This document shows positions 1,423 through 5,809 of a stretch of 33,530 nucleotides of DNA, piece after piece. The DNA is from Treponema sp. (GTDB taxonomy: Bacteria; Spirochaetota; Spirochaetia; Treponematales; Breznakiellaceae). How positions within the stretch are numbered: the first letter of the stretch is position 1; every line of letters begins with the position of its first letter. Made by a program: the position numbers and the translations under genes. The notes under the pieces are model-generated. The model had not been told where the DNA came from. It did not search any database and saw only the letters and a program-made list of their open reading frames with translations. The stretch is taken from the NCBI GenBank assembly GCA_009778545.1, contig WRJO01000013.1, forward strand, positions 1-33,530, read 5' to 3'.

Positions 1423-2421
1423 TTACGCTTGTCCGGCGGAGCCGAGGACGTTCTGGTTCTTGTGGGCGTAGAGCTTTTTCAGTTCGTCGCGCGCCGGGCC
1501 CATGTACTTGCGGGGGTCAAATTCGTCAGGCTTCTCGAAGAACACCGTGCGGATGGCAGCAGTCATCGCAAGCCGCCCATCGGAGTCGATGTTGATCTTG
1601 CAGACGGCGCTTTTGGCGGCCCTGCGGAGCTGCTCTTCGGGGATGCCGACTGAGTCGGTCAGTTTGCCGCCGTATTTCTCGATAATTTCGACGTACTCGA
1701 TGGGGACCGACGAGGAGCCGTGCAGCACGATGGGGAAGCCGGGAATCTTCTTTTCAATTTCTTCGAGGATGTCGAAGCGCAGCGGGGGAGGGATCAGGAT
1801 GCCGTGGGCGTCCCTGGTGCATTGTTCCGGTTTGAATTTTGTCCGGCCGTGGCTGGTGCCGATCGAAATGGCGAGCGAGTCGACCTTGGTCTTGCTGACA
1901 AAGTCGATTACCTCTTCCGGCTCGGTGTAGTGGCTGTGTTCCGAGGAAACGTCGTCCTCGACCCCGGCCAGCACTCCCAGTTCTCCCTCGACCGTCACAT
2001 AGTCCTTCTGGGAATGGGCAAATTCGCAGACTTTTTTGGTCAGCGCCACGTTTTCGTCGTATGAAAAATGGGAACCGTCGATCATCACCGAGGAAAATCC
2101 GGTCTCGATGCAGTCTTTGCACAGTTCAAAAGTGTCTCCGTGGTCCAAATGGAGGACGATGGGGATGTCGTAGCCCAATTCGTGGGCATATTCCACCGCT
2201 CCCCGCGCCATGTTTTTCAGAATATTCTGGTTGGCGTACTTGCGCGCCCCCGAAGACACCTGGAGGATAACCGGCGATTTGGTTTCCACGCACGCCTGGA
2301 TAATCGCCTGCATCTGTTCCATGTTGTTGAAGTTATATGCCGGAATAGCGTATCCGCCCGAAACCGCTTTCTTGAACATTTCCCTGGTATTTACCAGGCC
2401 CAATTCGGTGTAACTGGTCAT
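1423..2421 (-). CDS. fba: Fructose-bisphosphate aldolase, class II
   Basis: This zinc-dependent aldolase cleaves fructose 1,6-bisphosphate to glyceraldehyde 3-phosphate and dihydroxyacetone phosphate in glycolysis and gluconeogenesis. The 332-residue protein has the family landmarks: AIPAYNFNNMEQ near the N-terminus, HLDHGD (zinc His and catalytic Asp), MIDGSHFSYDEN, EGELG, ISIGTSHG, VLHGSSSVP (second zinc His) and NIDSDGR for phosphate binding. The length fits the ~330-residue class II type common in anaerobes. ATG 2421 is preceded by AAGGAG at 8-nt spacing and a good promoter. It is monocistronic in this window and convergent with the upstream membrane-protein gene, with a palindromic repeat between them. 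Confidence 0.97.
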   Translation of the reverse strand: MTSYTELGLVNTREMFKKAVSGGYAIPAYNFNNMEQMQAIIQACVETKSPVILQVSSGARKYANQNILKNMARGAVEYAHELGYDIPIVLHLDHGDTFELCKDCIETGFSSVMIDGSHFSYDENVALTKKVCEFAHSQKDYVTVEGELGVLAGVEDDVSSEHSHYTEPEEVIDFVSKTKVDSLAISIGTSHGRTKFKPEQCTRDAHGILIPPPLRFDILEEIEKKIPGFPIVLHGSSSVPIEYVEIIEKYGGKLTDSVGIPEEQLRRAAKSAVCKINIDSDGRLAMTAAIRTVFFEKPDEFDPRKYMGPARDELKKLYAHKNQNVLGSAGQA

Positions 2422-2451: not shown

Positions 2452-2480
2452 ATACTATTGCTTATAAGCCCATACGTCAA
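2452..2480 (-). promoter_or_regulatory. Sigma-70-type promoter of fba
   Basis: On the minus strand: TTGACG (2480-2475), exactly 17 nt, then TAGTAT (2457-2452), about 30 nt upstream of the aldolase start and its AAGGAG ribosome site. The -35 box abuts the terminal inverted repeat of the palindromic element at 2481. Confidence 0.6.
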
Positions 2481-2783
2481 GCTAAACTTGCCCCACAATT
2501 TTTCTTGCAATCCCCCGGCGGGGCGGGCAGCGCGGGGGCGGCGAAATCTGGGGGAGTCCGCCTACGGAGCCGCTGACCAGCCTTTTTTTGTCCATGCAAT
2601 AGAGAGCGGCTCCGAAAATTAGCGTGAATATCATGTTCCTCATGCTGGTCAGCCTTTTCTGTACCCTAAGTTTTTGATTCTACTCCCTCGTCTCCTTCGG
2701 CGGGGAGGCCCAGAAATTTTCGCCGCCCCCGCGCTGCCCGCCCCGCCGGGGCATTAGACGAGTAACTGTGGGTCAAGTTTAGC
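2481..2783. repeat. 303-bp nested palindromic element (MITE-like)
   Basis: The outer ends are GCTAAACTTG (2481-2490) and its exact complement CAAGTTTAGC (2774-2783). Inside is a perfect 34-bp inverted repeat, 2513-2546 against 2718-2751, extremely G+C-rich. Further in, the arms continue as an imperfect pairing (2544-2568 with 2688-2718), and a perfect 10-bp pair GCTGACCAGC / GCTGGTCAGC lies at 2572-2581 and 2644-2653. No transposase is encoded. The rest of the 525-bp gap up to 2946 holds the aldolase promoter and a possible cassette junction at 2872; I see nothing else in it. Confidence 0.75.
2482..2643 (-). CDS. Possible 53-residue ORF inside the palindromic element
   Basis: An open frame runs from ATG at 2643 to a TAG inside the terminal inverted repeat at 2482. 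The product would start with a hydrophobic stretch (MRNMIFTLIFGAALYC) and end in a Pro/Arg-rich tail (SPPPRCPPRRG) encoded by the G+C-rich arm. AAAAGG lies nine bases upstream. The tail is what this arm gives by chance in this frame, so it may not be a gene; conservation of the frame in other copies would decide. Confidence 0.2.
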   Translation of the reverse strand: MRNMIFTLIFGAALYCMDKKRLVSGSVGGLPQISPPPRCPPRRGIARKIVGQV

Positions 2784-2946: not shown

Positions 2947-3735
2947 ATGACAGATAAATATATCTTTGGAGCAATTGCTGGTGATATAATTGGTTCTGCT
3001 TATGAATTCTATAATATAAAATCTCTTGATTTTGAGCTTTTTACTAATGATACCTTCTTCACGGACGATAGTGTCATGACAATTGCAACAATGTATGTAC
3101 TGTTAAACTCTGTTGATTATGCGAAAACATATCACAGTATTGGAAGAAGATTTCCCCATAGGGGCTATGGTGGATGTTTCAAGAAATGGCTTTTATCAGA
3201 TGATCCTAAACCATACAACAGTTATGGTAATGGCTCAGCAATGCGTGTAAGCCCTATTGGATGGTATTGTAATAAAATTAATGATGTATTGGTAGAAGCA
3301 AAAAAAAGTGCAGAAGTTACCCATAACCACCCCGAAGGCATAAAAGGAGCACAATCCGCCGCTCTCGCTGTTTTTTTGGCACGAACTGGAAAAAGCAAAA
3401 AAGAAATCAAGAAAGGTATTGAAGAAAGATTTGACTATGATCTTTCCCGGACAATTGATAAAATTAGACCTGTTTATGAATTTGAAGAAAGTTGTCAAGG
3501 CACAGTTCCCGAGGCAATTATCGCATTTTTAGAAAGTACAGATTATGAAAACGCTGTAAGACTTGCTGTTTCAATAGGAGGTGACAGCGATACATTAGCA
3601 GCTATTACAGGCAGCATAGCCGAGGCGTTTTACAAGGAAATTCCTGAAGATATAACCGACTTTGTTCGAGTTATTTTGGGACCTGATTTAATGAAAGATG
3701 TGGTTATGCCGTTTTCAGAAAAGTATGGTTATTAA
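2947..3735 (+). CDS. ADP-ribosylglycohydrolase (DraG/ARH-like)
   Basis: The family hydrolyses ADP-ribose from modified proteins, nucleic acids or small molecules using two divalent metals. The 262-residue length fits a single catalytic domain. Visible landmarks: GAIAGDIIGSAYE at the N-terminus, the metal ligands FTDDSVMT (T39, D40, D41), HNHPEGIKGAQS (126-137), and IGGDSDTLAAITGSIAEA with the second metal motif D213-x-D215-T216. All expected metal ligands are present, so it is probably active. GGAGGAG lies seven bases before ATG 2947. It is the first gene of a four-gene A+T-rich operon; the next start is 11 bases downstream. What it de-ADP-ribosylates is not shown by sequence; its neighbours suggest an accessory, perhaps defensive or stress-signalling role. 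Confidence 0.9.
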   Translation: MTDKYIFGAIAGDIIGSAYEFYNIKSLDFELFTNDTFFTDDSVMTIATMYVLLNSVDYAKTYHSIGRRFPHRGYGGCFKKWLLSDDPKPYNSYGNGSAMRVSPIGWYCNKINDVLVEAKKSAEVTHNHPEGIKGAQSAALAVFLARTGKSKKEIKKGIEERFDYDLSRTIDKIRPVYEFEESCQGTVPEAIIAFLESTDYENAVRLAVSIGGDSDTLAAITGSIAEAFYKEIPEDITDFVRVILGPDLMKDVVMPFSEKYGY

Positions 3736-4673: not shown

Positions 4674-5024
4674 ATGCAAACACAAATGCCAAACAATTCG
4701 CAGCAGGATAATGAACCCAATATAAGTGTTTATCTTGCCATTATTCCTGGCATTTTTCTTACTGTTGTAATTATTTCAAATACTGATCTTCGTTGGTATT
4801 CATTTTTTTGGCTAATCTGGATAGTCATTTTTTGCACCGCTATGGTGTTTTCCCTTGTTTGGTATTTAATCGTATCACTTTTTAGGAAAATAAATTCTAA
4901 TCAAAATGAATATAATACAGTACAAGAAAATTATCAAAATCCACAACAAAATATTTCTTTAAATCAAAACACAATGACAAATCAGAATAAAAAGAAAGTT
5001 CCTAAAGATACAAAAAACTATTGA
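4674..5024 (+). CDS. Small two-pass membrane protein, unknown function
   Basis: A 116-residue protein with a short polar N-terminus, two hydrophobic segments (about residues 17-35 and 43-68, the second Trp/Phe-rich), and a Gln/Asn-rich cytoplasmic-looking tail ending in basic KKKVPKDTK. No family is recognised. It starts 15 bases after the nuclease-like gene, and its TGA overlaps the TTG start of the AAA+ gene by four bases (TTGA), which suggests translational coupling. It could anchor the ATPase or the nuclease-like protein at the membrane; this is inference from gene order only. Confidence 0.6.
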   Translation: MQTQMPNNSQQDNEPNISVYLAIIPGIFLTVVIISNTDLRWYSFFWLIWIVIFCTAMVFSLVWYLIVSLFRKINSNQNEYNTVQENYQNPQQNISLNQNTMTNQNKKKVPKDTKNY

Positions 5025-5809
5025 AAGAATTGAACAATTTAATTGGGTTACAACAGGTAAAAGATGAAGTTACATCTTTAATAAATACTATAAAGATAAA
5101 CATTTTACGCGAAGAAAAAGGTTTGAAGCAATCGCCTTTATCACTTCATTTAGTTTTTTCAGGTAATCCTGGAACAGGTAAAACAACAGTTGCTAGGATA
5201 CTCGGTAAAATTTATCGTAATCTTGGCATATTGTCTAAAGGTCATCTAATTGAGACAGATAGAGCAGGACTTGTTGCTGGTTACGTTGGTCAAACTGCAA
5301 TACAGACAAAACAAATAATAGAAAAAGCAAAAGGTGGCATACTTTTTATTGATGAGGCTTTTTCGCTTACACCTCAAAATGCTGGTTTCGATTTTGGACA
5401 AGAAGCAGTAGACACACTTTTAAAGGCAATGGAAGACTATCGTGATAATTTTATCGTTATTGTTGCAGGTTATCCAGAATTAATGAAAATATTTATAAAA
5501 TCAAACCCAGGTCTAGAATCACGTTTTAATACATTTATCAATTTTGTAGATTATAATCCGGATGAATTATTGGAAATATTTAAAACCTTATGTAAACAGC
5601 ATAATTATATTATTGATCCTAATGCAGAATCTACTTTAATCAAAATATTTCAAAATATTTATACAAACGCAGAAGAATCTTATGCTAATGCTCGCACAGT
5701 CCGTAATTTTTTTGAAAAAAGCATAAAACGTCAGGCTAATAGACTTACTAAAAGCGGTAAATTATCGGATATAGAATTACAGACATTTATTTTGGAAGAT
5801 TTTGTATAA
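5021..5809 (+). CDS. AAA+ ATPase, CbxX/CfqX (SpoVK-like) family
   Basis: A complete single AAA+ module of 262 residues. Seen: Walker A GNPGTGKT (48-55), pore/Rossmann segment AGLVAGYVGQTA (82-93), Walker B GGILFIDEA (105-113), sensor 1 VIVAGYP (146-152), arginine finger in NPGLESRF (162-169) and sensor 2 region ANARTVRNFFE. Family members (CbxX/CfqX rubisco activases, SpoVK, type VII EccA) form hexameric remodelling motors that act on partner proteins. The TTG start overlaps the previous stop and is the only start retaining the conserved LIGLQQVK opening. It is the last gene of the operon; an attC-like element follows 62 bases later. The substrate is probably one of the three co-transcribed proteins. 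Confidence 0.9.
   Translation: MKELNNLIGLQQVKDEVTSLINTIKINILREEKGLKQSPLSLHLVFSGNPGTGKTTVARILGKIYRNLGILSKGHLIETDRAGLVAGYVGQTAIQTKQIIEKAKGGILFIDEAFSLTPQNAGFDFGQEAVDTLLKAMEDYRDNFIVIVAGYPELMKIFIKSNPGLESRFNTFINFVDYNPDELLEIFKTLCKQHNYIIDPNAESTLIKIFQNIYTNAEESYANARTVRNFFEKSIKRQANRLTKSGKLSDIELQTFILEDFV

Follow-up and report, generated by a model that had tools for sequence, protein, structure and literature searches.

The 33,530-nucleotide stretch of Treponema sp. DNA analyzed here (the window) carries a 303-bp nested palindrome directly against the promoter of fba, the gene for fructose-bisphosphate aldolase, and this raises the question of what kind of sequence it is and whether it moves. The initial annotation had described three nested repeat pairs (terminal 10 bp, perfect 34 nt, and inner 10 nt), each of which we found at its place in the nesting, and had proposed a nonautonomous element that could be mobile and that contains a 53-codon frame. 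We consider it probable that the palindrome is one copy of a multicopy, nonautonomous mobile element that is conserved as a long minus-strand hairpin, with the folded strand serving as the substrate.

Structure of the window copy

The features of the palindrome and its surroundings are listed in Table 1. Overall, the arms comprise 66 nt at 88%. Folded as RNA, the element reached -181 kcal/mol; relative to dinucleotide shuffles this is a z of -11.9, so the palindrome is not a product of chance.

Table 1. Coordinates of the palindrome, its parts, and the adjacent genes in the window
Feature	Position	Strand	Remark
fba, host gene downstream	1423..2421	-	fructose-bisphosphate aldolase
fba promoter	2452..2480	-	-35 TTGACG 2480-2475, 17 nt, -10 TAGTAT 2457-2452; host sequence, outside the element
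Whole element	2481..2783 (303 bp)	unstranded	folded/selected strand is minus, reading toward fba
Left terminal inverted repeat, GCTAAACTTG	2481..2490	+	family end is TAAACTTGMCCCRC
53-codon ORF	2482..2643 (2643-2482)	-	judged noncoding
Outer stem, left arm (34 nt, perfect)	2513..2546	+	pairs with 2718-2751
Conserved core, 3' strand of folded minus strand, GGCUCCGUAGGCGGACUCCCCCAG	2548..2571	-	
Inner variable stem, one arm (10 nt)	2572..2581	+	heavy compensatory change
Inner variable stem, other arm (10 nt)	2644..2653	+	partner of 2572-2581
Conserved core, 5' strand of folded minus strand, CUGGGCCUCCCCGCCGAAGGAGAC	2690..2713	-	contains the 3x3 GNA/GNA loop and the bulged A
Outer stem, right arm (34 nt, perfect)	2718..2751	-	pairs with 2513-2546
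Right terminal inverted repeat	2774..2783	-	10-bp partner of 2481-2490
ADP-ribosylglycohydrolase gene, other flank of the element	2947-3735	+	

Copies in the same genome

The assembly that contains the window (G000) is a 68%-complete MAG of 1.99 Mb in 135 contigs. A BLAST search within it gave 93 matches at about 40 distinct places, which makes the palindrome a dispersed repeat, and a search with a core covariance model found 46. Full copies were 264 to 321 bp long with sharp ends (TAAACTTGMCCCRC...GYGGGKCAAGTTTA) and unrelated flanks; sharp terminal inverted repeats TAAACTTGMCCCRC were present at 66 places. The bases outside the element end showed a weak GC preference only, the terminal repeat was extended in some copies, and in some the ends outside GC followed by TAAACTTGACCC were diffuse. 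Three palindromes of 66 to 70 bp were internal-deletion forms. At two paralogous loci with the same flanks, a full copy (C24:157-472) stood against a 70-bp internal-deletion copy (C79:1960-2029), a pair in which DNA-level hairpin instability is seen also to shape the copies.

The terminal inverted repeats that the scattered copies have in common, the small size (270 to 320 bp), the absence of an ORF, and intergenic placement (125 of 134 copies) would suit an ordinary MITE, that is, a deletion derivative of a DNA transposon whose transposase reads the double-stranded terminal repeats and whose palindrome is incidental. The lack of an ORF of its own agrees with the element having been called nonautonomous. 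The 53-codon minus-strand frame does exist in the window copy, but its meaning as a frame did not hold up: differences among copies were equal across codon positions (1419:1455:1400), and most copies had stops in the frame or had lost its start, and a coding function was rejected.

Among copies less than about 450 bp apart, with pairs taken from the hit table, 18 of 20 were arranged (+,-), two (-,-), and none (-,+), giving inverted doublets of the kind known from REPINs. One doublet with an identical 70-bp spacer recurred in the genome (C49, C50, and C64, with a related one at C45). A promoter scan on the RNA 5' side of the copies found no excess over shuffled sequence. A longer variant has about 150 nt of extra structured sequence in the 5' core; it was seen at L018, L022, L028, L042, L076, and L077, where the extra domain is TGCCTAAGAACAAGCACTGCGTCAAGCAGTG..., and L076 contains further repeats of its parts.

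Distribution among genomes

Covariance-model hits were obtained in 30 of the 40 genomes of the genus, with 1 to 68 copies each; without the window's own genome, 29 of 39 congeners were positive. Across the order, nine genera (eight besides that of the window) had hits, all within one family, and with stricter filters there were none outside that family among 294 evenly drawn genomes. A single contig of 4,059,867 bp makes up one of the positive genomes. The pattern search for named relatives, comprising 67 stretches, pointed to Treponema MAGs and one Spirochaetaceae MAG, whose source, read from isolate codes, was apparently termite guts. Rfam contained no family above the gathering cutoff and relaxed searches were also negative, and a known RNA family was rejected; a plasmid or phage origin was rejected for the absence of matches in plasmid collections, phage collections, and, by pattern, IMG/VR. 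No description of the element was found in the literature searched. The palindrome belongs to a real, mobile, and undescribed repeat family whose habit is like that of REPINs and MITEs and which fits neither definition fully. A second dispersed repeat, CTCACGCAGAGGCGCAGAGGCGCAGAGCACGCAGAGG, is also spread in the genus, occurring in the flank of contig C26 of the window's genome and at many places in G013, G041, G042, and G053.

Structural conservation and strand choice

The minimal core kept across species reads, on the minus strand, CTGG-loop-CCGCC-GNA-GGAG-A-CC ... GG-CTCC-GNA-GGCGG-loop-CCAG. From one species to another, unrelated sequence that is still self-complementary takes the place of the outer stem, the inner stem, and the terminal repeats. 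RNAalifold on 35 copies yielded 24 pairs, 15 of them with changes on both sides. In 172 distinct cores, pairs switched (C-G to A-T, C-G to T-A, G-C to C-G, and so on) and nearly always stayed intact. Parsimony reconstruction on a tree of these cores, with a rough alignment, counted 50 double compensatory changes over the core helices and, among one-sided changes on the plus strand, 26 A.C against 3 G.T. The outer stems of 166 copies had 297 A.C and 142 G.T on the plus strand (p ~1e-13), and their arms matched their own partners far better than the arms of other copies. An A.C on the plus strand is a G.U wobble on the minus strand. Mutation bias does not explain the excess, because the unpaired loop has no surplus of G>A (0.016 per site, against 0.022 for C>T).

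Compensatory pairs with wobble intermediates on one strand, the signature of a structured nucleic acid under selection, were present. The 3x3 loop reads GNA/GNA on the minus strand only, with possible sheared G.A pairs, and in minimal copies the minus strand folded more stably in seven of seven. We take the minus-strand wobble excess, free of mutational bias in the loop, to indicate that selection acts on the minus strand in its folded, single-stranded form, RNA and ssDNA being indistinguishable from the sequence. Evolution that preserves a precise rod on one strand suggests some function for the folded strand itself. The conserved, strand-specific structure with relatives across genera goes beyond the nested palindrome and had been missed in the initial annotation.

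Two other explanations bear on these observations. Template switching of DNA could make and homogenize a palindrome, so that the compensation would be arm-to-arm copying instead of selection, and both the private insertions common to the two arms of single copies (e.g., C24 and C32) and the hairpin deletions (C24/C79) are consistent with it. Under such copying, however, conserved internal loops (GNA/GNA, AAUUC/AUUCC, and the bulged A) would not survive, and it would leave A.C and G.T residues in equal numbers, whereas we observed 26:3 and 297:142, and we find it scarcely credible. The element might instead be a structured RNA that serves the host (as an mRNA processing or stability site, or an RNase III or protein-binding element) and was dispersed by recombination. 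RNA typically shows the kind of one-strand wobble and internal-loop conservation seen here, and a very long dsRNA rod would be a strong RNase III substrate. However, singletons lay in the same sense as flanking genes in 25 cases and antisense in 15 (p = 0.15, not significant), and the fixed orientation of a cis-regulator was rejected; copy number ranged from 0 to 68 between congeners; and no gene class shared among neighbors of the copies was noticed. A host-function RNA is very unlikely on these grounds.

On the reading that we favor, a mobile element conserved as a minus-strand hairpin, the rod would consist, in order, of a variable outer stem, an internal loop, a CCGCC/GGCGG stem, the 3x3 GNA/GNA loop, a GGAG-A-CC/GG-CUCC stem, and a variable inner hairpin, without branches. 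The folded single minus strand, either RNA or ssDNA exposed in replication, would be the substrate of a putative host- or element-encoded enzyme, which would recognize it by structure and move it to new intergenic sites without detectable target duplication; stem and end sequences could be swapped provided that the fold persists. Alternatively, the folded minus strand could act in the cell as RNA. We propose only tentatively that the element represents a new class of structured nucleic acid that moves, confined to one spirochaete family. Such an element would encode no protein, would transpose as a folded RNA or ssDNA rod recognized by structure alone, and could have its stems and ends replaced while the core fold stays.

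Mobility and insertion sites

At a locus between cysE and era (both named by eye), six relatives aligned continuously across the junction with the genes nearly abutting, whereas the window's genome has 416 bp between them; the exact junction is unreadable in the diverged flanks. The absence of the copy in the six relatives indicates that the element inserts. The fba region also varied: 24 of 29 relatives lacked the element in the fetched flanks, and the other five (G005, G009, G011, G022, and G044) had copies near fba that were placed or oriented differently. The precise ends of copies whose flanks are unrelated, the empty cysE-era site, and the variation near fba indicate that the element is mobile on evolutionary time, as the initial annotation had thought possible, and that copies come and go without inheritance at fixed sites. 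Instead of a unique sequence held by relatives at one locus, we found dispersed copies whose sites differ.

The target duplications and the autonomous parent envisaged at the outset did not turn up. Inspection of about 27 two-ended copies revealed no flanking direct repeat beyond the palindromic GC, and a TA duplication of the IS630 type was rejected, as the ends vary together (TAAAC/CAAAC/CGAAC) with no target-site duplication. No autonomous element with the same ends was found around the terminal repeats or between spaced pairs in these fragmented, incomplete MAGs, which break at repeats; the spaced inverted pairs enclosed ordinary genes only. An ordinary MITE is unlikely: its terminal repeats would be expected to persist while the interior drifts, whereas here the ends differ between species and the core stays, its pairs and loops being conserved by compensation with strand-specific wobble, and target-site duplications are missing.

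Search for a mobilizing enzyme

Inverted doublets, intergenic copies, a strand-specific fold, and the absence of target duplications would also accord with a REPIN/BIME-like element, in which ssDNA hairpins are moved by RAYT, an HUH/Y1 tyrosine transposase, and the doublet is the mobile unit; the REPIN/RAYT literature follows the same logic (PMC3116915, PMC8266576, PMC3733652). However, PF01797 (Y1/RAYT) had no hits in the 68%-complete window genome, and no Y1 transposase was detected in the high-copy relatives G018, G001, and G008. Where RAYT-like loci elsewhere in the genus had clear flanking inverted repeats, the repeat was a different one. At L370, a RAYT-like gene had one copy of the element about 1 kb away, but this copy was not among the flanking repeats of the gene, and a RAYT/Y1 partner was rejected. 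REPs are defined as units of 20 to 40 nt with a GTAG/CGTC foot (PMC3733652), whereas the element ends in TAAACTTGACCC or GGCAACAGCATTTAC, shows no such foot, and is about 10 times longer. We regard a REPIN-like origin as decidedly unlikely. The repeat at the RAYT-like Y1 transposase genes of termite Treponema is itself dispersed and inverted (GGTGACAGTCACC..., GGTGTCAATCACC...; L370:1625-1667 / 2207-2250 and L372:1213-1257 / 2347-2388).

A reverse transcriptase partner was likewise rejected, since RVT_1 was absent from the window's genome. In two other genomes, copies (L349:836-917 and L352:2643-2777) lay within about 0.6 kb of RT genes that looked DGR-like by eye, each having a gene for a variable-protein-like product close by; we judged both to be likely coincidence and a lead only.

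Comparison with known systems

The element shares with RAYT (TnpA_REP)-mobilized REPINs and BIMEs its dispersed intergenic palindromes, inverted doublets, nonautonomy, and dependence on a fold, with no target duplication seen, but at about 300 bp it has a conserved multiloop core where REP units are short, RAYT was not detected in the window's genome, and the RAYT-like loci of relatives have another repeat. Some MITEs have RNA-level structure, e.g., Correia/NEMIS and the Bacillus cereus bcr elements, which are likewise short, repeated, bounded by terminal inverted repeats, and foldable when transcribed. In contrast to these, the terminal repeats of the element change between species, its core is kept across genera with compensation, and neither a parent transposon nor a target duplication was found. 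IS200/IS605 elements have a subterminal hairpin that is recognized on one strand and make no target duplication; the one-strand structure and lack of duplication are similar, but the element has no transposase ORF and its hairpin is the whole element.

Integron attC sites resemble the element in that their hairpin folds on a specific strand and has a bulged base, a spacer without pairing, and a terminal structure that varies. Their R''/R' boxes read RYYYAAC/GTTRRRY, which the ends GCTCAAC/GTTGAGC in G018 fit by eye. The boxes did not fit three other cases: the window copy has GCTAAAC/GTTTAGC, which differs at one position, G009 has GGGCAAC, and the single-contig genome did not match either. 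Element copies also differ in being isolated and intergenic, without cassette arrays. AAC/GTT triplets characterize attC, and termite treponemes have been reported without integrons, none being present in T. primitia or T. azotonutricium (PMC3607928).

The element is present at high copy in uncultured symbionts, and its more than 170 distinct copies reveal the folding strand and the kept loops, making the fold directly testable. To our knowledge, most dispersed palindromes of bacteria are known merely as sequence repeats. Identifying the mobilizer could reveal structure-guided movement of DNA.

The copy next to fba

The left end of the window copy directly abuts the -35 of the fba promoter, in line with the initial annotation, since TTGACG adjoins position 2481; about 30 congeners have a promoter of the TTGACC-N17-TATAAT type ahead of fba. 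This copy probably acts mainly as the upstream boundary of the promoter, and it may insulate or alter it. Nothing points to a dedicated regulatory role.

The element was near fba in five other species (L310, L313, L317, L334, and L336), above the approximately 0.5 expected from a density estimate. One of these, a 2,790-bp contig of G005 (L317), has the fba promoter repeated in inverted orientation at its end, probably through an assembly fold-back at the hairpin. In G051, a genome with no core hits, a solo end resembling the terminal repeat (GCTAAACTTGCCCTGCAATTACTCCG) lies near the -35 upstream of fba (L326). On the other side of the window copy, near the ADP-ribosylglycohydrolase gene, positions 5021-5809 encode an AAA ATPase with an AAA_lid_6 domain (CbbX-like), in the region that the initial annotation had called a cassette island.
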